From a virus, in IMG/VR virus record IMGVR_UViG_3300017917_002656, positions 1-35,848 of that record: DNA of 35,848 nucleotides; one strand, 5' to 3'. The translations under genes and the position numbers were made by a program. Shown here one piece after another: positions 2,694 through 25,607 of this stretch (its first letter is position 1; each line of letters begins with the position of its first letter). A model generated the notes under the pieces. That model worked only from the letters and a program-made list of their open reading frames with translations, was not told where the DNA came from and did no database searches.

Positions 2694-2759
2694 ATGATTA
2701 AAAAAGAGATACAAGAAGAATTTTACTTACTTGGACTTGATGTGTCAACCAAAACATAA
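2694..2759 (+). pseudogene. Truncated 5' copy of the downstream RuvC-like gene
   Basis: This 21-codon frame encodes MIKKEIQEEFYLLGLDVSTKT and a stop. It matches the first 20 residues of the RuvC-like protein at 3485, where YLLGLDVSTKT recurs at residues 10-20. The last 18 bases before the junction (2739-2756 versus 3527-3544) are identical, while the codons upstream differ by synonymous changes (Leu, Gly, Tyr). The match ends exactly where the RuvC frame would continue; an in-frame TAA follows at once. I read it as the left-behind original start of the resolvase gene, cut off by insertion of the GIY-YIG cassette. Confidence 0.85.
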
Positions 2760-2782
2760 TTCACACTTTGCTATTTTTCTTA

Positions 2783-2791
2783 CTATTTATA
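2783..2791 (+). promoter_or_regulatory. CTATTTATA motif before GIY-YIG gene 1
   Basis: The motif lies three bases upstream of the preferred ATG at 2795. The second endonuclease gene has the same motif at nearly the same distance. This supports a private promoter giving a very short or leaderless message, and it helps decide the start. Confidence 0.4.
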
Positions 2792-2794
2792 GTT

Positions 2795-3481
2795 ATGGAA
2801 AATAGCAATTTTATTTATGGTTTAATTGACCCTATAACCAACCAATTAAGGTATGTTGGTAAGAGCATAAACCCCAAAAATCGTTTGAGAAAACATATTT
2901 CAGAAAGAAACCTTCATGATAGTTATAAAGATAGATGGGTTAGAAAATTATATAACCTTGATTTACGTCCAGAATTAATTATTATTGATGTGATTAATAA
3001 CGAAACGGATGATTGGAGATTTTGGGAGGTGTTTTACATATCTTATTTTAAGTCTATTGGTTGTAATTTAACTAACGGTACTCTTGGTGGTGATCAACCA
3101 CCATCAACAAAGGGTAGGAAGCAATCACTTGAGACAAGAACGAAAATGTCAAAAAGTAAGTCAGGTAAACCACCAGCGTGGTGGGTACCTGGGACGATAA
3201 GAAGTGAAGAACATAAACAAAATTTATCCAAAAGTTGTAAAGGGCGGGTTTCGCCTAATAAAGGTAAAAAATATTCGGAGGAACATAAAGCTAAATTAGT
3301 TAAAGCATCAACAGTCAATAAACCAGTTTTACAATTAGATTTGGATGGTAACTTAATAAAAGAATGGCCTTCTAAAAATTTAGCACAAAAAACATTAAAA
3401 ATAAGACATATATCCGAATGCTGTAATAACCTTAAAAATTTTAAAACAGCGGGTGGGTATAGATGGGTATATAAAAATTAA
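2795..3481 (+). CDS. GIY-YIG homing endonuclease (Seg-like) with NUMOD repeats
   Basis: A 228-residue freestanding homing endonuclease that should cut DNA of related phages lacking the cassette. The GIY-YIG nuclease domain covers residues 6-100: IYG at 7-9, YVG at 20-22, an Arg/His pair at 30 and 34, the likely catalytic Glu at 78 and the NGTLGGD segment at 94-100. Two or three NUMOD3-type DNA-binding repeats follow (about 105-175, pattern KGRKQS, then RSEEHK, then YSEEHK). A NUMOD1-like helix-turn-helix (about 178-225, QLDLDGNLIKEW, ending GGYRWVYKN) completes it. I chose ATG 2795 because an upstream TTG start at 2768 would add a poly-Phe/Leu leader and because the second endonuclease starts at the equivalent place. 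It ends three bases before the RuvC-like gene. Confidence 0.93.
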   Translation: MENSNFIYGLIDPITNQLRYVGKSINPKNRLRKHISERNLHDSYKDRWVRKLYNLDLRPELIIIDVINNETDDWRFWEVFYISYFKSIGCNLTNGTLGGDQPPSTKGRKQSLETRTKMSKSKSGKPPAWWVPGTIRSEEHKQNLSKSCKGRVSPNKGKKYSEEHKAKLVKASTVNKPVLQLDLDGNLIKEWPSKNLAQKTLKIRHISECCNNLKNFKTAGGYRWVYKN

Positions 3482-3484
3482 TAT

Positions 3485-4090
3485 ATGAAAAAAACTAACG
3501 ATAACGAATACTATCTTTTAGGTTTAGATGTGTCAACCAAAACAATTGGCGTGTCACTTTTTGATAATAAGGGACAACTACTGGAATTAACCCACATCTC
3601 ACCAAAGGCTAAACCAGTACCTGATTCAAAAACAGAAGAATTGATTAAAAAGGCGGATCTTTATGCTGAGTTCATTAAGAAATACGCCAAAATGAAAACC
3701 AAGATTAAACACGTTGTTATCGAGGAACCTTTATTGCGTTCAAACAACGTTAATACGGTGGGTACACTACTTAGATTTAATGGTATGGTAACCAAGATAA
3801 CATATGATATCATTGGGGTAGTACCAGAATATGTGAGTACATACGAAGCCAGAAAAAATGCCTTTCCTGAGTTAATGCAACCAGGATCGAATAAAAAACC
3901 AGTACTATTCGGTGCTTACTCGAAAGACACCGATAAAAAAATGGTAATCTGGGAGAAGGTATCGGAAAGAGACCCAAACATCAAATGGTTATTGGATGCT
4001 AAGGGTGCCTTGAAAAAAGAAAATTTCGATATGGCTGATGCATACACTGTATGTTTGTCATATATGAAAATGAAAAAGATCATCGAGTAA
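3485..4090 (+). CDS. RuvC-like Holliday junction resolvase (RNase H fold)
   Basis: This 201-residue protein should cleave branched recombination or replication intermediates. The acidic residues expected for a RuvC/RNase H fold are in the expected order: Asp15 in LLGLDVSTKTIGV, Glu80 or Glu81 in VVIEEPLL, and Asp182 with Asp185 near the C-terminus in DMADAY. It is somewhat longer than bacterial RuvC. The gene heads the recombination block and ends one base before the promoter of the primase gene. Its first 20 codons appear twice, here and in the stub at 2694, so the present start seems to have been supplied with the GIY-YIG insertion. Confidence 0.88.
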   Translation: MKKTNDNEYYLLGLDVSTKTIGVSLFDNKGQLLELTHISPKAKPVPDSKTEELIKKADLYAEFIKKYAKMKTKIKHVVIEEPLLRSNNVNTVGTLLRFNGMVTKITYDIIGVVPEYVSTYEARKNAFPELMQPGSNKKPVLFGAYSKDTDKKMVIWEKVSERDPNIKWLLDAKGALKKENFDMADAYTVCLSYMKMKKIIE

Positions 4091-10732: not shown

Positions 10733-11032
10733 ATGAAAAAAATTAAAAATTTTTTTAATGAGAGTGGCTACCTTTTGGTAGTCGCTTTCATGTTTTTACT
10801 GACGGTACATAATTGTAACCAGAGCGGTAAAATGAAGTCAATCAAGAAAGAAATCGTTAACGTAAGACATGCTAATGATAGTATGGCTACGCTTTTAATG
10901 AATGAAATCAAGATAGAAGGTTTGAAATCTGAGCTTAGAATGATTCAGGCCACAGATAGAAAAATACTCGATGTACAAAGACAAAACCAGATCGAGGCTG
11001 AAATAAAGAGTATCCAAAACGCCGCTAAGTAA
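10733..11032 (+). CDS. Small membrane-anchored coiled-coil protein
   Basis: A 99-residue protein with one hydrophobic segment at about residues 12-27 (GYLLVVAFMFLLTVHNC), followed by a charged, helical, probably coiled-coil region. The cysteine after the hydrophobic stretch (HNCNQ) is not a good lipobox, so a single-pass membrane anchor is more likely than a lipoprotein. The architecture recalls phage spanins or small i-spanin-like proteins, but nothing proves that. An 11-pair hairpin lies inside the start of the gene (10763-10786). It abuts the ArdC-like gene, whose ATG overlaps its stop by one base. Confidence 0.65.
   Translation: MKKIKNFFNESGYLLVVAFMFLLTVHNCNQSGKMKSIKKEIVNVRHANDSMATLLMNEIKIEGLKSELRMIQATDRKILDVQRQNQIEAEIKSIQNAAK
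10763..10786 (+). other. Strong hairpin inside the 5' coding region
   Basis: AGTGGCTACC and GGTAGTCGCT pair around a TTTT loop (ten pairs, two of them G-U). A long T run precedes it and a short one follows. It sits ten codons into the gene, in the sense orientation, downstream of a promoter-like site, so it could lower read-through or translation. It may also be chance. Confidence 0.35.
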
Positions 11033-12714
11033 TGTCAGTAATTATAGAAAACGTAAAAATCGTATCAAAAACGGGTACAACCAAAACAGGTAAACCGTAT
11101 AAGAATCTAATATTATCTTCTGATAATGCGGATCTTGGGGCGAGAAACGCCGAAAATGGTTGGATTGCCAACACACTTAAAATTACAAGTAAGTATGAAC
11201 CAGCGTTTTCTGAATTTAAGCAGCAATTTCCAGGCGTTGACGTTCCCACCAGGATGGTGACAACCGATAAGAATGTTTGGGGTTGGGGTTATTGGATTAA
11301 TAACCCAGAAGATGAGGCAAAGAAAATTGAAGGTATTAAAAAGTTAGCCCAGTTCCTAAATAAAGAAAGGAGCGTGGATAATACTGGCGATGAAACCATT
11401 GATAAGTTTGAAGGTTTTGAGGATGTTCAGGCTTTCATCGGTAGACTCAGAGAGATGCTGACTGAAATCAATATCCAGGATGAAGCCAAACAAAAAGAAC
11501 TTACACGAGGTATTGAAAACTTCATTAAGGAACTCGCACAATCAGTTGACGCTGTTGCGGCCAATGAAAAACTGGCTGAATTCTTTGAATGGAGAAGAAA
11601 ATTCCATACATTCTCGTTGAATAACACAATCCTTATTTTTGTGCAGAAACCTAACGCCACCCAGGTAGCGTCTAAGACAACATGGAAAAAATTAGGTTTT
11701 ACACCAAAAGAAGGTGCTACTCAGATTTGGTTATGGAGACCACATCTTAGACCAAAGAGCCCCGAATTTAAGGAGAAAATACGTAAAGAATTCATTGCAA
11801 AATACGGCAAGGGCGGTGTTTTATCTCCGAAGTATGAAAAGATGTTAAAAGATGAGTTGGATAAACCGATGGTTGATACAACAAAGAGACCAATTTTATA
11901 TCCGACTTATGACATAACAGATGTTGTGAATGAGGCTGGTGAATCTGGAGCCGAAAAAGCGCCACAAAAACCAGAACTTATGTGGTCAAATAATACTCCT
12001 AACGAGATTGGTGATAAGATAGCGGAAGCAATGTATAAGATTATACCAGCCTACGGTATTAAATTATCATTCTATAAACCAACTGGCGGTGAAAAGGGTT
12101 ATTCGGCGAGTGGGGATATACACCTATCAGATGAGCTGGTGGGTATAGCAAAAGCATCAACAGCTGTGCATGAATTTGCCCATGAAATAATGCACCAGAG
12201 CTACGTGAAAAGCGTTGCCGCTAAGGGTCAAAAAACGAGTGAAAAATCTAAACTCATCCAAGCCGCCTATGTCGGTAGAGATGTATCAAAAACACTCGAA
12301 TTACAAGCCGAGGGTGTGGCATATGTTGTATTAAGACAATTCGGTATTAACGAAGCTGAACACGCTGTAAACTATATCGCCTTATGGAATGGTGACCATG
12401 ATAGTGTTATGGGTAATCTTGACATTATCACAAGAACAGCAAACTTAATTATCAACGAGATAAATTCTCATTATGATACCACGGTTGACGATACGGGTGA
12501 TGAAACCGAATTTGGTGATTATGAGGCGGAACCAGAGACAGAAACACCAGTGACCGAAAACGAGGGTGGTGATATACCACATGCATCCACTGTAACAAGA
12601 GGTGATGTTGCTAAGATGTTGGGACTTAAAACAACCAAAGAACCAGACCATATCAAAGAACTTGAAACAACATTGAACGAAGCAAAACAACTTATTAAAT
12701 CAATAATAATATGA
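11032..12714 (+). CDS. ArdC-like protein with a zinc metallopeptidase motif
   Basis: A 560-residue protein resembling ArdC-type antirestriction proteins. Residues 1-80 (ENVKIVSKTGTTKTGKPYKN and beyond) read like a small beta-rich, possibly OB-like domain. Residues ~170-240 carry the ArdC N-domain pattern (FHTFSLNNTILIFVQKPNAT, then TTWKKLGFTPKEGATQIWLW), which in ArdC binds single-stranded DNA. A metallopeptidase domain has HEFAH at 380-384, with Glu427 in ELQAEGVAYV as the likely third zinc ligand. A long acidic C-terminal tail follows. In plasmids, ArdC protects incoming DNA from restriction; here it could guard phage DNA or process a host factor. Its stop overlaps the start of the truncated gene at 12711. 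Confidence 0.8.
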   Translation: MSVIIENVKIVSKTGTTKTGKPYKNLILSSDNADLGARNAENGWIANTLKITSKYEPAFSEFKQQFPGVDVPTRMVTTDKNVWGWGYWINNPEDEAKKIEGIKKLAQFLNKERSVDNTGDETIDKFEGFEDVQAFIGRLREMLTEINIQDEAKQKELTRGIENFIKELAQSVDAVAANEKLAEFFEWRRKFHTFSLNNTILIFVQKPNATQVASKTTWKKLGFTPKEGATQIWLWRPHLRPKSPEFKEKIRKEFIAKYGKGGVLSPKYEKMLKDELDKPMVDTTKRPILYPTYDITDVVNEAGESGAEKAPQKPELMWSNNTPNEIGDKIAEAMYKIIPAYGIKLSFYKPTGGEKGYSASGDIHLSDELVGIAKASTAVHEFAHEIMHQSYVKSVAAKGQKTSEKSKLIQAAYVGRDVSKTLELQAEGVAYVVLRQFGINEAEHAVNYIALWNGDHDSVMGNLDIITRTANLIINEINSHYDTTVDDTGDETEFGDYEAEPETETPVTENEGGDIPHASTVTRGDVAKMLGLKTTKEPDHIKELETTLNEAKQLIKSIII

Positions 12715-12803
12715 ATAAAGAAAACGTAACTAAGAATTTTATAATCGGTACATTCGTAACGTTATATGTTTTAGTTTCATTGATATCAACAATCTTTTAT
12801 TAA
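12711..12803 (+). pseudogene. Truncated 5' copy of the downstream membrane protein gene
   Basis: This 30-codon frame starts inside the ArdC-like stop (ATGA overlap) and ends in TAA. Its residues KNFIIGTFVTLYVLVSLIST match the start of the membrane protein at 13596 (DKFVIGSFVVLYVLTSCIST). Homology stops after the shared 11 bases ATATCAACAAT (12783-12793 versus 13665-13675), and three codons later a stop ends the frame. The two copies differ at many synonymous and some replacement sites, like orthologues from different phages. I interpret it as the original gene start, cut off by the second GIY-YIG cassette. Confidence 0.82.
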
Positions 12804-12811
12804 ACAAAACA

Positions 12812-12820
12812 CTATTTATA
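12812..12820 (+). promoter_or_regulatory. CTATTTATA motif before GIY-YIG gene 2
   Basis: CTATTTATA ends three bases before ATG 12824, the same arrangement as at the first endonuclease gene. No TTTG is found at the usual upstream distance. Confidence 0.4.
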
Positions 12821-12823
12821 TGT

Positions 12824-13618
12824 ATGGATACTATTACATATAAAATATACGGGGTTTTGAATCCAAAGTCAAATAAGCACTATGTAGGTAAAACTAAACA
12901 CTCATTATTAAAACGAAAAAAAGAACATATTGCAGCCGCTAACCGAAAAACGGGTTCGCATAAGTTTTATGACTGTATTCTTGTTGAGGGTGATAATCTT
13001 GTCTGGTTTATTATTGAGGATGGGTTGACGGAAGAAAATGTTAATGAGCGTGAGCAATATTATATTTTTCTTTATGATTCTTTCAATAACGGTTATAATG
13101 GTACATTGGGTGGTGATGGTGGTGATACTTGGTCAAATAATGATAAGTTAGAACAGTTCAAAGAGAAACGGAGATTAGAATGGTTGGGTGAGAAAAATCC
13201 AAATTACGGCTCACCGTTACCTGAAGAACAAAAATCAAAAATGATCACTTCAAAAAAAGGCATACCTATCCATAGTCTTGAATATCGTTTTAAACTTAGT
13301 GAACGAATGCGCCAAGAATGGCATGAGGGTAAACGTATAAATTATTTAAGTGATTACGCTAACAATCGTTTAGGTTCTGTCTTGAATGACGAACAAAAAA
13401 GTAAAATTGGTGAGGGGGTTAAAAACTCAGAAAAATATAAAGCGAGTATAAAAACGAGGGCGATTACTAAACGTAAAAAATATAACGAACGAATAGAAAA
13501 ATTTGGTTCTTATTTAAACGAGAATAAGTCAAAGGAAGAAATTATGGCTCTTATGGAGATAAAAGAACCAACATATTACAAATATAAGAAAGATTATGAA
13601 TCAAAAATTAATAGATAA
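12824..13618 (+). CDS. GIY-YIG homing endonuclease, second cassette
   Basis: A 264-residue freestanding homing endonuclease. The GIY-YIG domain has IYG at 8-10, YVG at 20-22, Arg31 with His35, a likely catalytic Glu at 77 in EREQYY and the NGTLGGDGGD segment at 92-101. NUMOD3-type stretches follow (GEKNPNYGS, PEEQKSKM, then NDEQKSKIGEGVK), with a basic helical C-terminus (KSKEEIMALMEIKEPTYYKY) that may be a helix-turn-helix. It resembles the first endonuclease in design, but its C-terminal DNA-binding region differs, which fits a different target gene. Its last 23 bases also encode the first codons of the membrane protein at 13596 in another frame. Confidence 0.92.
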   Translation: MDTITYKIYGVLNPKSNKHYVGKTKHSLLKRKKEHIAAANRKTGSHKFYDCILVEGDNLVWFIIEDGLTEENVNEREQYYIFLYDSFNNGYNGTLGGDGGDTWSNNDKLEQFKEKRRLEWLGEKNPNYGSPLPEEQKSKMITSKKGIPIHSLEYRFKLSERMRQEWHEGKRINYLSDYANNRLGSVLNDEQKSKIGEGVKNSEKYKASIKTRAITKRKKYNERIEKFGSYLNENKSKEEIMALMEIKEPTYYKYKKDYESKINR

Positions 13619-14453
13619 GTTTGTTATTGGTAGCTTTGTCGTACTGTATGTGTTAACAAGCTGCATATCAACAATACACGTAATTGACTTCTTTAGGTTA
13701 TCTAACCCGAATTGGCTGGCTACCACACTCGCAATAGCGTTTGAAGTGGGTGCGGCTGCTTCATTAGCGTCAATTATAGCTCTTAAAAAGATGAATAAGG
13801 GTATTGTGTGGGCATTATTCTTTATGTTAACCCTTATGCAAGCCATGGGTAACACATACTATGCTTATACGCACCTGGTTAATTACCAAAGCTGGATTGA
13901 ACTATTCGGTTTGGTTGATAGTGAGGTAATTGAACAGAAACGTATATTATCTCTTGTTTCTGGAGCCATACTACCATTGGTAGCTCTTGGGTTTATCAAA
14001 TCTTTGGTGGATTATATCAAACCCGATGAAGAACAACCCAAAACACCCGATACAATTCCAGCACCCACCTTCCCTGCTGATTTAATCTTAGTTAATAAAG
14101 GTGACGAAGAGGTGGATATAACAGATCTTAAAGAAGCCAAAGTGGATTATGACGCTGTCATCAAAGCGGGGCAAGAAGCACAACATGCCAAAATAATGGA
14201 AGTTCTCAATAGAAAAGCTAAAGAAAGGGAAGAAAGGGGTGAAACATATGAAGATGAACCAACAGCATTAGCTAACTCTTTCCATACCGAACGGATCACG
14301 GAAGATGAATTAGAAGCTGAGGTGGAATCTGAACCAGAAGATGAAGTAATACCAGAAAGTCAAGAGCCTATTGTTGAAGAAAATAAAGAGGAAGATCCTA
14401 AAATGAAGATCCTCAACAATATAAAGGTTTTTGTTAATGGTGAAGCTAAATAA
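13596..14453 (+). CDS. Four-helix membrane protein with acidic cytoplasmic tail
   Basis: A 285-residue protein with four predicted membrane segments (about 9-29, 40-63, 69-92 and 115-136). A ~145-residue charged, strongly acidic, probably disordered tail follows (clusters such as EDEVIPESQEPIVEENKEED). I do not recognise the family. The hydrophobic segments contain no obvious catalytic or transport motif. The start codon lies inside the end of the second GIY-YIG gene; a diverged copy of its first 28 codons remains at 12711, so the present start was probably brought by the cassette. The gene overlaps the amidase-like gene by about 17 bases. A role in host membrane takeover or lysis timing is possible but unproven. 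Confidence 0.78.
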   Translation: MNQKLIDKFVIGSFVVLYVLTSCISTIHVIDFFRLSNPNWLATTLAIAFEVGAAASLASIIALKKMNKGIVWALFFMLTLMQAMGNTYYAYTHLVNYQSWIELFGLVDSEVIEQKRILSLVSGAILPLVALGFIKSLVDYIKPDEEQPKTPDTIPAPTFPADLILVNKGDEEVDITDLKEAKVDYDAVIKAGQEAQHAKIMEVLNRKAKEREERGETYEDEPTALANSFHTERITEDELEAEVESEPEDEVIPESQEPIVEENKEEDPKMKILNNIKVFVNGEAK

Positions 14454-20305: not shown

Positions 20306-20894
20306 AACTCATATTAATAGGTTTTATACTGAATATCACGAAGCAAATGCGATGAATTTTTTCAGTTCTGAAAATGTGGCCTGGTCATCTAAAGCAGCCC
20401 AGTATGCCAGATTCAAAGTATTATGTGATATCGGTATCGATAAAGATAGCACAATACTTGATTTTGGGTGCGGTCTGGGTCACTTAACGGATTATCTATA
20501 CACCGAAGTATCGGACTATAATTTGAAAAACTATACTGGGTTAGATATAAACCAGCGGTACATTGATAGTTGCAATCATGTAAGAAGAGGATTACGCTTT
20601 ATTTGTGGCGAAATCTTCGATTTAAGCGAGTCTTTTGATTATGTGGTGGGTTCGGGTGTCTTTACGGTAATGATGCCGAAAAACGAGATATTAGAGGCCA
20701 TAGCTAAGGCGTATGAGTTATGCAACAAAGGTGTGGCTATAAATTTCTTGACTAAGGAATTTTTGGATCTCAGCTGGGTAAGTAGTTTTAACCCAGATGA
20801 ATTCTATTCTGAGATATCATTGTTGTATCCTAATACAAAATTAATAACCAATTACTACGGTAATGAGGATTTTACAATTTATATTTATAAGTAA
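20286..20894 (+). CDS. Class I SAM-dependent methyltransferase
   Basis: A 202-residue methyltransferase. Motif I (ILDFGCGLGHLTDYL, about 57-71) binds the SAM methionine moiety. The acidic residue ending strand 2 is in TGLDINQRY, and the post-motif GEIFDLSESFDYVVGSGVF supplies strand 4. No adenine- or cytosine-specific DPPY/PCQ motif is present, so it is more likely a small-molecule, protein or RNA methyltransferase than a DNA modification enzyme. I prefer ATG 20286 to TTG 20277. It abuts the gene at 20894, whose ATG overlaps its stop by one base. Confidence 0.85.
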   Translation: MSKTSYKTHINRFYTEYHEANAMNFFSSENVAWSSKAAQYARFKVLCDIGIDKDSTILDFGCGLGHLTDYLYTEVSDYNLKNYTGLDINQRYIDSCNHVRRGLRFICGEIFDLSESFDYVVGSGVFTVMMPKNEILEAIAKAYELCNKGVAINFLTKEFLDLSWVSSFNPDEFYSEISLLYPNTKLITNYYGNEDFTIYIYK

Positions 20895-21115
20895 TGGATA
20901 ATAAAAATAGTGATTATTTAAGGGTTAAGGCCTTGTATGATCGTGAGATCACCAGGGATATGATTGAAATAGAAACCCATAAAGAAAAATTCATTAAGGA
21001 AATGAAATCGGGTCTGGGTGAAAGGGTTAATGACATTGAGAGTTATAAAAAACCAGAACCATCGTTTTTCAGTAAATTAGGTGCCAAAATAAGAAAAATA
21101 TTCCGTGCGTTATGA
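20894..21115 (+). CDS. Small charged helical protein
   Basis: A 73-residue protein, charged and almost entirely helical in appearance, with a basic C-terminus (FFSKLGAKIRKIFRAL) that could be an amphipathic membrane- or nucleic-acid-binding helix. No family is recognised. It overlaps its neighbours by one base upstream and four bases downstream. Confidence 0.55.
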   Translation: MDNKNSDYLRVKALYDREITRDMIEIETHKEKFIKEMKSGLGERVNDIESYKKPEPSFFSKLGAKIRKIFRAL

Positions 21116-21321
21116 CGTTAGAAAAGTTATTTAATATTACTAAAGGAATTGATCAGACTGTACCTAAAGCTGAAATAACTTTGTATTTGAGTAAACCAGA
21201 CCATGATAGGTTACAAGAAGAGGTTTACAGAATGAAAGACCCGACATTATCATCATATAAACCACAAACCGTTTTCCAGGTGCAGCTGGATAAAGTCTTA
21301 TTCATTTTGCGCACGGTTTAA
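21112..21321 (+). CDS. Small uncharacterised protein
   Basis: A 69-residue protein beginning MTLEKLFNITKGIDQTV. It is a plausible small alpha/beta fold with no recognised motif. Its stop overlaps by four bases the stop of the convergent minus-strand gene, with no room for a terminator between them. Confidence 0.5.
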   Translation: MTLEKLFNITKGIDQTVPKAEITLYLSKPDHDRLQEEVYRMKDPTLSSYKPQTVFQVQLDKVLFILRTV

Positions 21322-21947
21322 TGCGTACTGACTTTCTGCATGTAATCCCTGCTAATATTGAATTCTTCTTCCAACCTATCATAAATCCTTAGTTTAGTAT
21401 CCAGAGAAGGATCCTGGAAATAAATAAAATTATTTACCCCATTAGTGAGGTTGAATGATTTGATGGTTTCAGATAGAAGATATGAGGCATCTTGGTTTTT
21501 TAAGATTAAAACATTTACGTCGTCATTTTCAAATCTTTCAATTACTACCTTATTGCTGATAACCAAAATAACATAGGTTAAACCTTGTTTCTTGAGAAGC
21601 TCCTTTATTAGGGTTTTAAAAGTATATTTCTTACCTGTGATTCTATCTTTGAATGCATCTTCAATAGCGTATTTATTCACCTTTTTAATTACAAAATCAC
21701 CTTTGGTTTTGATCTTAACCATGGCCCCGAATTCATTTCTCAGATATTCTTTCCCGCTATTTTTAGCGGGGGCCGTTAAAACCAACTCATAATCGGTTTT
21801 GGTTCCGTCCCATAGTTTTTCTTTTGGGAAGAATACCTTATTGGATTTGAGCAAAAAATCATATTTTCTGATGGCGTTTCCGTATCTCACATAGCTGTTG
21901 ATTTTACGAACCCGCTTACCGTTGTTGTATAAAATAATTTCGTACAT
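21318..21947 (-). CDS. Uncharacterised 209-residue protein, minus strand
   Basis: A 209-residue basic protein. The first 90 residues look like a beta-rich domain (MYEIILYNNGKRVRKINSYV, with the YDFLLKSNKVFFP and YELVLTAPAKNSGK segments), followed by an alpha/beta part (KKQGLTYVILVISNKVVIER). No family is recognised. It is one of only two minus-strand genes in the window and lies downstream of the other, separated by a terminator, so it needs its own promoter or read-through. Its 3' end overlaps the convergent plus-strand gene by four bases. Confidence 0.62.
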   Translation of the reverse strand: MYEIILYNNGKRVRKINSYVRYGNAIRKYDFLLKSNKVFFPKEKLWDGTKTDYELVLTAPAKNSGKEYLRNEFGAMVKIKTKGDFVIKKVNKYAIEDAFKDRITGKKYTFKTLIKELLKKQGLTYVILVISNKVVIERFENDDVNVLILKNQDASYLLSETIKSFNLTNGVNNFIYFQDPSLDTKLRIYDRLEEEFNISRDYMQKVSTH

Positions 21948-21969
21948 ATTGATTAAATTTAGTAAATAC

Positions 21970-22003
21970 CAGAAATAAATAAAGGGTGGTAAAAACCACC
22001 CTT
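21970..22003 (-). terminator. Terminator between the two minus-strand genes
   Basis: A nine-pair perfect hairpin (AAGGGTGGT with ACCACCCTT, 21982-21990 and 21995-22003, loop of four) is followed on the minus strand by a T-rich tract. It lies 33 bases after the stop of the gene at 22036-22464. Confidence 0.82.
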
Positions 22004-22035
22004 AAGGAATAAAAAAAACAACAATGATATAAACC

Positions 22036-22464
22036 TTAGTGAACTATACCAAATTCTTTTATCAACTCGAAAGCAAGTTTCTGTGCTTTCTCGTAGTGTG
22101 CGTATATTCTATTTTTAATGTTTTCGTTTTCTTGTTTAGCGGCCACTTTACTTAGGATTGACTTAGCCTCGTCAATTTTATCCAAATATTCTAACAATTC
22201 TTGTGGTGGGGACGGCATATCAATAGGATCGATTTCCTCTTCACCTTCCTCGTCACCTTCGCTATCATGGCCAGTTTTTATGGCTTCGATGTCACCAGCC
22301 GAAGGGTATTCAATTTCCCTATCAGACGGGTCATCACCAATCATTTTTTCAATGTGTGGCGTAACTCTATCCTCATCGTCATCACCGCCTTTCATGCGCT
22401 CTAATTCGTTCTCAGCAAGGAGTTCGATCTGTCTTTGTGTTAATATTATTTTTTTCTTTTCCAT
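22036..22464 (-). CDS. Acidic protein, minus strand, possibly virion associated
   Basis: A 142-residue protein. A short basic N-terminus and helix (MEKKKIILTQRQIELLAENE) precedes a long, very acidic, probably disordered middle (about 27-90), and a helical C-terminus follows (DEAKSILSKVAAKQENENIK). The N-terminal strand plus Q-x-x-x-L helix faintly recalls the start of the protein at 16431. An unknown family. A minus-strand CTATTTATA motif lies about 50 bases upstream, and a strong terminator follows, so it is probably a single-gene unit. Confidence 0.62.
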   Translation of the reverse strand: MEKKKIILTQRQIELLAENELERMKGGDDDEDRVTPHIEKMIGDDPSDREIEYPSAGDIEAIKTGHDSEGDEEGEEEIDPIDMPSPPQELLEYLDKIDEAKSILSKVAAKQENENIKNRIYAHYEKAQKLAFELIKEFGIVH

Positions 22465-25057: not shown

Positions 25058-25133
25058 AATGTGAGTGGTTACAGCAATCTTCTACTTCTTTAAAATTGGT
25101 TTAAAATGAAAAAAAAGCCACTCAGTTCACATT
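25058..25133 (+). ncRNA. Second structured element with bulged stem (R2)
   Basis: AATGTGAGTGG (25058-25068) pairs with CCACT (25118-25122) and CACATT (25128-25133), 11 pairs interrupted by a five-base bulge on the 3' side. The 49-base loop starts with a pyrimidine-rich run (CTTCTACTTCTTT) and ends A-rich. It lies six bases after R1 and directly before the terminator, so it may be the 3' domain of one transcript or a second small RNA. A bulged lower stem with a pyrimidine-rich loop is also seen in Y RNAs, but the match is only architectural. Confidence 0.55.
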
Positions 25134-25134
25134 G

Positions 25135-25160
25135 AGGCTGACGTAATGTCAGCCTTTTTT
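25135..25160 (+). terminator. Rho-independent terminator of the TROVE/RNA unit
   Basis: AGGCTGAC (25135-25142) and GTCAGCCT (25148-25155) pair perfectly around a GTAAT loop, followed by six T. This defines the 3' end of the TROVE-R1-R2 transcript. Confidence 0.93.
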
Positions 25161-25235
25161 ATTTATATCATGTCATACTGGCTTAAATTTTGGTTTGGCA
25201 CACAATATGCTTTATTGTGGTAAAAACTAAATTAT

Positions 25236-25607
25236 ATGAACATGATTAGAGCACCATTCAGAACAAACACAATGAACTTCATCAAGATGGTAGATGAATT
25301 AATGGAATCGTATGATACGGAATCATACGCATCTAAAGATCAGGACTTTTCCGTGGAAATCCCTTTACCAGGATTAAGTAAAAATGACATCGAATTGGAA
25401 GTGGTGGGTAAAACATTTACCATCAAAACCAAATTAAAGGAACCAACGGGGTATCTTAAGCGATACCAGGACTACCGCTACTCCTATCAACTAACCGATA
25501 AATACGATCTGAGTAAAGTTGAGGCGGCGATGGTAAATGGTTTATTAACAATAAAAGTACCCTTAAAGGAATATAAAACGGAAAGTTTAAAGATCGAAGT
25601 AAAATAA
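25236..25607 (+). CDS. Small heat shock protein (Hsp20/alpha-crystallin)
   Basis: A 123-residue chaperone of the Hsp20 family that would hold unfolded proteins in an ATP-independent way. The alpha-crystallin domain spans about 35-123: FSVEIPLPGLSKNDIELEV at its start, then VVGKTFTIKTK, YSYQLTDKYDLSKVEA, and MVNGLLTIKVPL, which carries the conserved A-x-x-x-x-GxLxIxxP end. The N-terminal arm is short and the C-terminal I-x-I tail is not clear (KIEV). Phages of other groups also carry Hsp20 genes, where roles in virion assembly have been suggested. The gene stands alone between two terminators. Confidence 0.9.
   Translation: MNMIRAPFRTNTMNFIKMVDELMESYDTESYASKDQDFSVEIPLPGLSKNDIELEVVGKTFTIKTKLKEPTGYLKRYQDYRYSYQLTDKYDLSKVEAAMVNGLLTIKVPLKEYKTESLKIEVK

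Follow-up and report, generated by a model that had tools for sequence, protein, structure and literature searches.

Introduction

Mobile open reading frames (ORFs) that carry the C-terminus of a host gene are known from fungal mitochondria, where they have been described for atp6, atp9, cox2 and nad3 of Glomus, and further cases, in Allomyces atp6, Rhizopus atp9 and Mortierella cox2, are cited in the same work (PMC3630166). They are the closest precedent for the element considered here, which lies in the 35,848-base virus record IMGVR_UViG_3300017917_002656, the whole of which is referred to as the window. In this element a GIY-YIG homing endonuclease gene interrupts a conserved phage gene for a predicted membrane protein and is accompanied by a foreign replacement for the 5′ end of that gene. 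We call it cassette 2, a first cassette being located at 2694–4090.

Common to the fungal mobile ORFs and cassette 2 are the combination of an endonuclease gene with a foreign replacement end of the target, the retention of the displaced native end as a stub that is nearest to the sequences of close relatives, and the divergence in DNA of the imported end (PMC3630166). The fungal elements replace the 3′ (C-terminal) end of the target whereas cassette 2 replaces the 5′ end, with a new start codon and a nuclease gene that overlaps it, and resides in a DNA phage (PMC3630166). Cases from Tremella have been termed N-terminal duplications, although the duplicated piece, as we read it, resembles the following exon and, therefore, the downstream part (PMC7315562).

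Among phages, the Seg GIY-YIG nucleases of T4 share with cassette 2 the superfamily, the phage setting, overlaps of 11–24 bases with neighbouring genes and co-conversion, and for T4 nuclease overlaps of 20–24 bases a similar suggestion of re-initiation has been made (PMC2988022). Many homing nucleases are annotated in T4. The Seg and Mob genes lie between other genes or split them and, in the available portion of PMC2988022, none is described as bringing a replacement part of its target; in contrast to Seg-type genes placed between intact genes, the cassette 2 nuclease sits inside a coding sequence. Nucleases that, as in cassette 2, lie in a conserved phage gene include mobE/nrdA of Aeh1, mobA/gene 60 of T4 and seg/gene 43 of phage 25, but there the two halves of the split gene act together as separate proteins whereas in cassette 2 a full-length protein would be rebuilt from the new start (PMC2988022). 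In the literature searched, which was confined to open-access papers, we found no description of a phage nuclease that brings along a replacement for the 5′ end of a gene; this is weak evidence of novelty.

Organisation of cassette 2

Cassette 2 and its target extend over positions 12711–14453 and consist of the following features, where L017 denotes a contig of a second phage carrying the cassette.

12711–12803, plus strand: stub, the displaced native 5′ end of the membrane-protein gene, with 27 native codons and then a junction tail up to the first stop
12783–12793, plus strand: 11-base repeat ATATCAACAAT, copy 1, left junction
12794–13675, plus strand: putative mobile unit of 882 bases (881 in L017), comprising a leader, the nuclease gene and the replacement start through the second repeat; its omission yields an in-frame native gene
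12811–12820, plus strand: ACTATTTATA element, possible promoter, ending 3 bases before the nuclease ATG
12824–13618, plus strand: GIY-YIG homing endonuclease gene, 264 amino acids, with conserved catalytic-motif residues
13596–13618, plus strand: 23 bases shared by the 3′ end of the nuclease gene and the start of the membrane gene, which are read in different frames; the overlap is conserved in L017
13596–13676, plus strand: replacement gene start, 27 codons, foreign to the lineage of this phage; its closest counterpart is the replacement start of L017
13596–14453, plus strand: target gene, a conserved phage protein of 285 amino acids and a predicted membrane protein (prediction made by eye)
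13665–13675, plus strand: 11-base repeat ATATCAACAAT, copy 2, right junction

The stub encodes MNKENVTKNFIIGTFVTLYVLVSLISTIFY followed by a stop codon, and its ATG shares bases with the stop codon of the upstream gene (ATGA). The product of the membrane-protein gene, the translation of which would be initiated at 13596, begins MNQKLIDKFVIGSFVVLYVLTSCISTIHV. An earlier interpretation of this DNA, made without database searches (the sequence-only reading), had maintained that the stub matches the start of the membrane protein and ends at an 11-base junction, and this is upheld by an ungapped BLOSUM62 score of 70 between stub and gene-start residues, as against 31–32 for the five best scores obtained by chance in 60 Markov-1 resamplings of the upstream 3 kb. 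Moreover, the stub was found at E 4.5e-4 when the membrane protein was searched against its own record. That the start codon lies 23 bases inside the 3′ end of the nuclease gene had also been correctly recognised; it is 772 bases past the nuclease ATG and in another frame.

The spacing of the two ATATCAACAAT copies equals the length of the putative mobile unit, 882 bases in the window and 881 in L017, and when the flanks are joined at the repeat an in-frame native gene start results, both in these two phages and in cassette 1. To the right of the second repeat the first base that distinguishes the lineages is already native, being A in the window and its cassette-free relative L002 and C in L017 and its relative L007. 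A conserved serine directly before the junction is encoded by AGY in both carriers, as opposed to the usual TCN, and AGT also occurs in the cassette-free L003. One claim of the sequence-only reading, that the nuclease cannot be cleanly deleted, is not supported: joining at the 11-base repeat restores the frame, so that the nuclease could leave cleanly if it were excised precisely or if an empty allele recombined with the locus, and relative L086 keeps a swapped start at the cassette 1 target without a nuclease. The narrower truth is that a deletion matching the nuclease reading frame base for base would take the new start codon with it.

Cassette-free relatives and the displaced start

Loci encoding the membrane protein were compared for the best 80 of 104 relatives in viral contigs, together with a further locus from a reference record. 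The contigs L018/L017 also appear as L082/L083 and L165/L166, and L084/L085 are the window itself. The cassette is present, at the same codon, in two of the 81 other loci (L017 and L018, representing one phage in two metagenomes and identical where compared) and absent from 79. Being present in some relatives and absent from others at one fixed position, for which the corresponding empty site is seen, is a property expected of a homing endonuclease gene. A separate stub occurs in none of the 79 cassette-free loci, its absence from L073, with only 195 bases upstream, saying little, and the stub tail past the junction differs between the two carriers. The view that the stub is a conserved, independent small gene, which the sequence-only reading had itself named as a result that would count against it, is therefore rejected.

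According to that reading the stub was the displaced native start and the new start had come with the nuclease, and a comparison of 5′ ends with and without the nuclease, which it had recommended, leads to the same conclusion. The nearest cassette-free relative, L002, starts MNKENITKNFIIGTFVTLYILVSLISTIHVIDFF, like the stub of the window and not like the replacement start. Stub and L002 start are 86.4% identical in nucleotides and 92.6% in amino acids (25/27 residues), and by nucleotide identity L002 is nearest both to the stub (83.3%) and to the gene body (82.3%). In the genome collection the membrane gene is represented by one cassette-free copy, a 75% relative in a Bacteroidetes metagenome-assembled genome (MAG) contig.

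A second carrier and a foreign start

In L017/L018 the nuclease is 70% identical to that of the window, the 23-base overlap is the same, and the stub ends at the same codon. The stub and body of L017 are nearest to those of L007/L008 (90.0% and 88.7% nucleotide identity), while the two replacement starts are nearest one another (73.3% nucleotide and 80% amino acid identity). In a tree of 47 starts the replacement starts group together at 99/90, and the L017 stub groups with L008 at 97/92. The replacement starts are foreign to the lineages that carry them: their median identities to 43 distinct cassette-free starts are 55.0% and 53.3%, and the corresponding median for each of these 43 starts, 58.3–78.3%, lies above both. 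The gene bodies of the two carriers are ordinary, at 69.6% and 71.6%.

Changes between the window stub and the L002 start are predominantly synonymous (9 synonymous, 2 nonsynonymous; p 8e-6), as are those between the L017 stub and the L007 start (4 synonymous, 2 nonsynonymous; p 0.02). It follows that selection acted on the stubs as coding sequence until a recent time, later than the split of each lineage from its cassette-free relative, which argues for two separate insertions, and on these comparisons the insertions in the window and L017 look recent and independent. Nuclease DNA is 74% identical between the window and the contig of L017, as compared with 43–70% for the other full-length genes matched, which points to horizontal transfer; higher values, 76–89%, are confined to the two stubs and the replacement start, all of them short.

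Identity of the nuclease

The cassette 2 nuclease matches PF01541 at 28.5 bits (cut-off 22.6) and PHROGs family phrog_314. The residues of the GIY...YIG motif and R31, E77 and N92 are invariant across three aligned nucleases, and the protein thus carries the motif and the catalytic arginine and glutamate by which the GIY-YIG superfamily is recognised. Alignment to the I-TevI structures 1mk0 and 1ln0 is weak (E 0.014–0.019); Arg31 and Glu77 align at positions where these two entries, presumably active-site mutants, differ from one another.

A single match, at 27%, was found among the reference phages, and a wider search, made by protein scan, by alignment scan and with a DNA pattern that spans the overlap of nuclease and start, recovered only the two known contigs. 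GIY-YIG proteins are present in 4 of 30 related records. Four GIY-YIG matches were observed in L001 (LR756500.1), a 462-kb uncultured phage, and a stub scan of L156–L159 revealed no start swap.

Cassette 1

The proposal that cassette 2 repeats the design of a first cassette was also confirmed, the target of cassette 1 being a RuvC-like gene and the repeat 18 bases long.

2694–2759, plus strand: stub, the native 5′ end that the RuvC-like gene had before its displacement
2739–2756, plus strand: 18-base repeat GATGTGTCAACCAAAACA, copy 1
2782–2791, plus strand: ACTATTTATA element before the nuclease gene
2795–3481, plus strand: GIY-YIG nuclease gene with NUMOD3 (and weak NUMOD1) DNA-binding motifs
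3485–4090, plus strand: RuvC-like resolvase gene, with a swapped start nearest to that of L086
3527–3544, plus strand: 18-base repeat GATGTGTCAACCAAAACA, copy 2

The nucleases of the two cassettes are 29% identical, and a search with that of cassette 1 gave one partial match, at 45%. In relatives L087–L100 the RuvC gene start resembles the cassette 1 stub. In L086, which lies on the same contig as L002, it resembles the replacement, and both stub and nuclease are missing; a 19-codon GIY-YIG-like remnant, its kinship judged by eye, is present in the 2904–3060 region, and the search of related records for GIY-YIG proteins found none in this contig. DNA identity between the window and L086, in 120-base steps from the swapped start, is 96, 95, 95, 93, 87, 90, 90 and 87%, and then 78–85%, and that of the left flank is 83.8%. 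Such a gradient would be expected if both sequences had been co-converted from a common source. With its swapped start and remnant, L086 resembles a scarred allele and suggests that a swapped start can outlive its nuclease.

Native RuvC starts were also compared for L087–L099, over only 17 codons, and were often more conserved in DNA than the body (L090/L093, proportion of synonymous differences (pS) 0.36 versus 0.71), L093/L097 being an exception.

Proposed mechanism and alternative explanations

We consider it likely that cassette 2 is a homing element, consisting of a GIY-YIG gene and a foreign 5′ end of its target gene, which breaks and then restores the target. The nuclease would cut the cassette-free allele of a co-infecting phage near the ATATCAACAAT site and, during repair, stub and body would act as homology arms while the nuclease gene and replacement start were copied in. 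The native start would be severed, but the imported start codon would immediately make the gene whole again, and ribosomes might re-initiate at 13596, where the nuclease gene ends or close to that point. So diverged in DNA is the imported start that it should no longer be a good target, and the net effect would be a natural 'home-and-rescue' element.

Several points weigh against this reading. Cleavage, homing and expression are deduced from sequence, and the C-terminal half of the nuclease yielded no recognised DNA-binding motif in a Pfam-type domain search. Carriers of cassette 2 are only two, the window and one other phage, such that the independence of the insertions rests on sequence comparison, and the donor lineage of the replacement start was not found. 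The alignment of starts is only 60 columns long, and approximately unbiased (AU) tests do not reject clades joining the window replacement to its own stub (p 0.17) or stub to stub (p 0.12). The stubs, with their few nonsynonymous changes, could still be translated and selected, and the replacement start could be simply foreign and not selected for cleavage resistance.

The 5′ swap might, alternatively, be mere hitch-hiking, if a free-standing nuclease lay upstream of the gene in a donor and recombination ended by chance inside the gene at a conserved stretch. Co-conversion is normal in phage homing (PMC2988022), a conversion gradient is seen at cassette 1 and L086 has a swapped start and no stub, all in accord with this explanation, but we find it unlikely given that the left and right edges coincide, within one codon, in two phages that have diverged from each other, that both carriers already have their native base at the first lineage-specific position to the right of the repeat and that the design is present twice in one window. 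A single ancestral insertion, inherited vertically in the window and L017 lineages and lost in L002, L007 and others, with the replacement start representing a long-diverged gene part, would account for the occupation of the same codon in both carriers, for a nuclease pS of 0.58, not far under that of flanking genes, and for the failure to reject the stub and stub clade. A stub dead since the ancestor should, however, show nonsynonymous changes, whereas each is mostly synonymous relative to its own relative; several exact losses would also be needed, and the nuclease DNA is closer than every other full-length gene matched, and we judge this scenario improbable.

Two further possibilities carry very little weight. 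Local tandem duplication of the gene start, followed by divergence, would produce two gene-start copies in direct repeat, as observed, but the replacement start resembles its counterpart in the other phage more than its own stub (a relationship for which the AU test alone does not reject the alternative, p 0.17), and the stub is closer to the starts of other phages, making this origin highly improbable. Equally hard to credit is a group I or group II intron with an encoded nuclease and the stub as exon 1; phage GIY-YIG nucleases are often intron-borne, I-TevI being an example, but the downstream gene has its own complete start and splicing is not needed. At gathering thresholds no Rfam family matched anywhere in the window, the only hit in 12600–13800 was at chance level (E 0.78), and the intron explanation was rejected on the grounds that no catalytic intron RNA was detected by Rfam.

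Possible start swaps in other phages

A blind scan, with a score of at least 45, searched 156 records for genes whose start is repeated upstream in truncated form and detected the two window cassettes, L017/L018 (also as L082/L083) and the window copy L084, together with L097 and L127. A second blind scan, with a score of at least 42, covered another 22 records, among them the complete T4 genome and the initial 50 kb of ICP1. The matches in L097, L127 and L167, and one in L170, were dismissed by eye as short, of low complexity or due to chance. The stub scan of the whole T4 genome gave no start-swap case. At 25066–25451 of T4 (L179), the annotation of alt.-1 and alt.-2 describes an old duplication involving the first part of alt, and no nuclease is annotated between them.

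In ICP1 (L177, HQ641347), positions 20424–22284 contain a truncated RNase H start, an antisense gene for Gp53 (ORF53; CapR and T5orf172 nuclease), ORF54 and a complete RNase H gene. As in cassette 2, a truncated target start lies on one side and a complete gene on the other; unlike cassette 2, the nuclease gene has the opposite orientation and no shared junction was found. From its layout this is a possible start swap in a studied phage. The arrangement occurs in 82 of 82 matching records, and there is consequently no empty site at which to test the swap. PMC10448857 mentions Gp53 and RNase H and, in its available portion, not the stub.

We suggest, tentatively, that there may be a general class of phage 'home-and-rescue' drives, which would insert in conserved genes and carry a cleavage-resistant 5′ end as a functional part, would employ several nuclease families (two GIY-YIG types and perhaps T5orf172 in ICP1) and would spread foreign starts even after nuclease loss. 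Bringing the broken-off part along would provide a way for an intron-less nuclease to home into a conserved coding sequence without destroying the gene, and engineered homing-rescue gene drives and the fungal mitochondrial elements follow a similar logic. Such elements would give rise to mosaic gene starts in phages and would leave stubs behind, which may end up annotated as small genes. Empty, filled and scarred alleles all occur in sequenced phages and make the model testable.

Neighbouring genes, the ACTATTTATA element and the host

The gene upstream of the cassette 2 stub (11032–12714) shows 26% amino acid identity to its positional counterpart in the contig of L002 and 37–41% to G010/G005. 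It constitutes another recombination patch at the cassette 2 site, most neighbours being 75–96% identical to the contig of L002.

Four copies of ACTATTTATA are present in the window (at 326, 2782 and 12811 on the plus strand and 22522 on the minus strand) as against 0.36 expected, and the element ends 3 bases before the ATG of both window nucleases and of the L017 nuclease. In all 12 places listed, drawn from the window and from L167, L168, L170, L172 and L174 and some of them orthologous, it lies 3–49 bases before a same-strand ATG of a frame of at least 60 codons, and it may be a phage promoter.

Genes for recombination and repair in the window encode an SbcD-like protein, an exonuclease, a primase and the RuvC-like protein, and others encode a sigma factor and an SprB-repeat protein. 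The SprB repeats, together with the 75% membrane-protein relative in the Bacteroidetes MAG contig, point to a Bacteroidota host, and the window probably derives from a large phage of that phylum.

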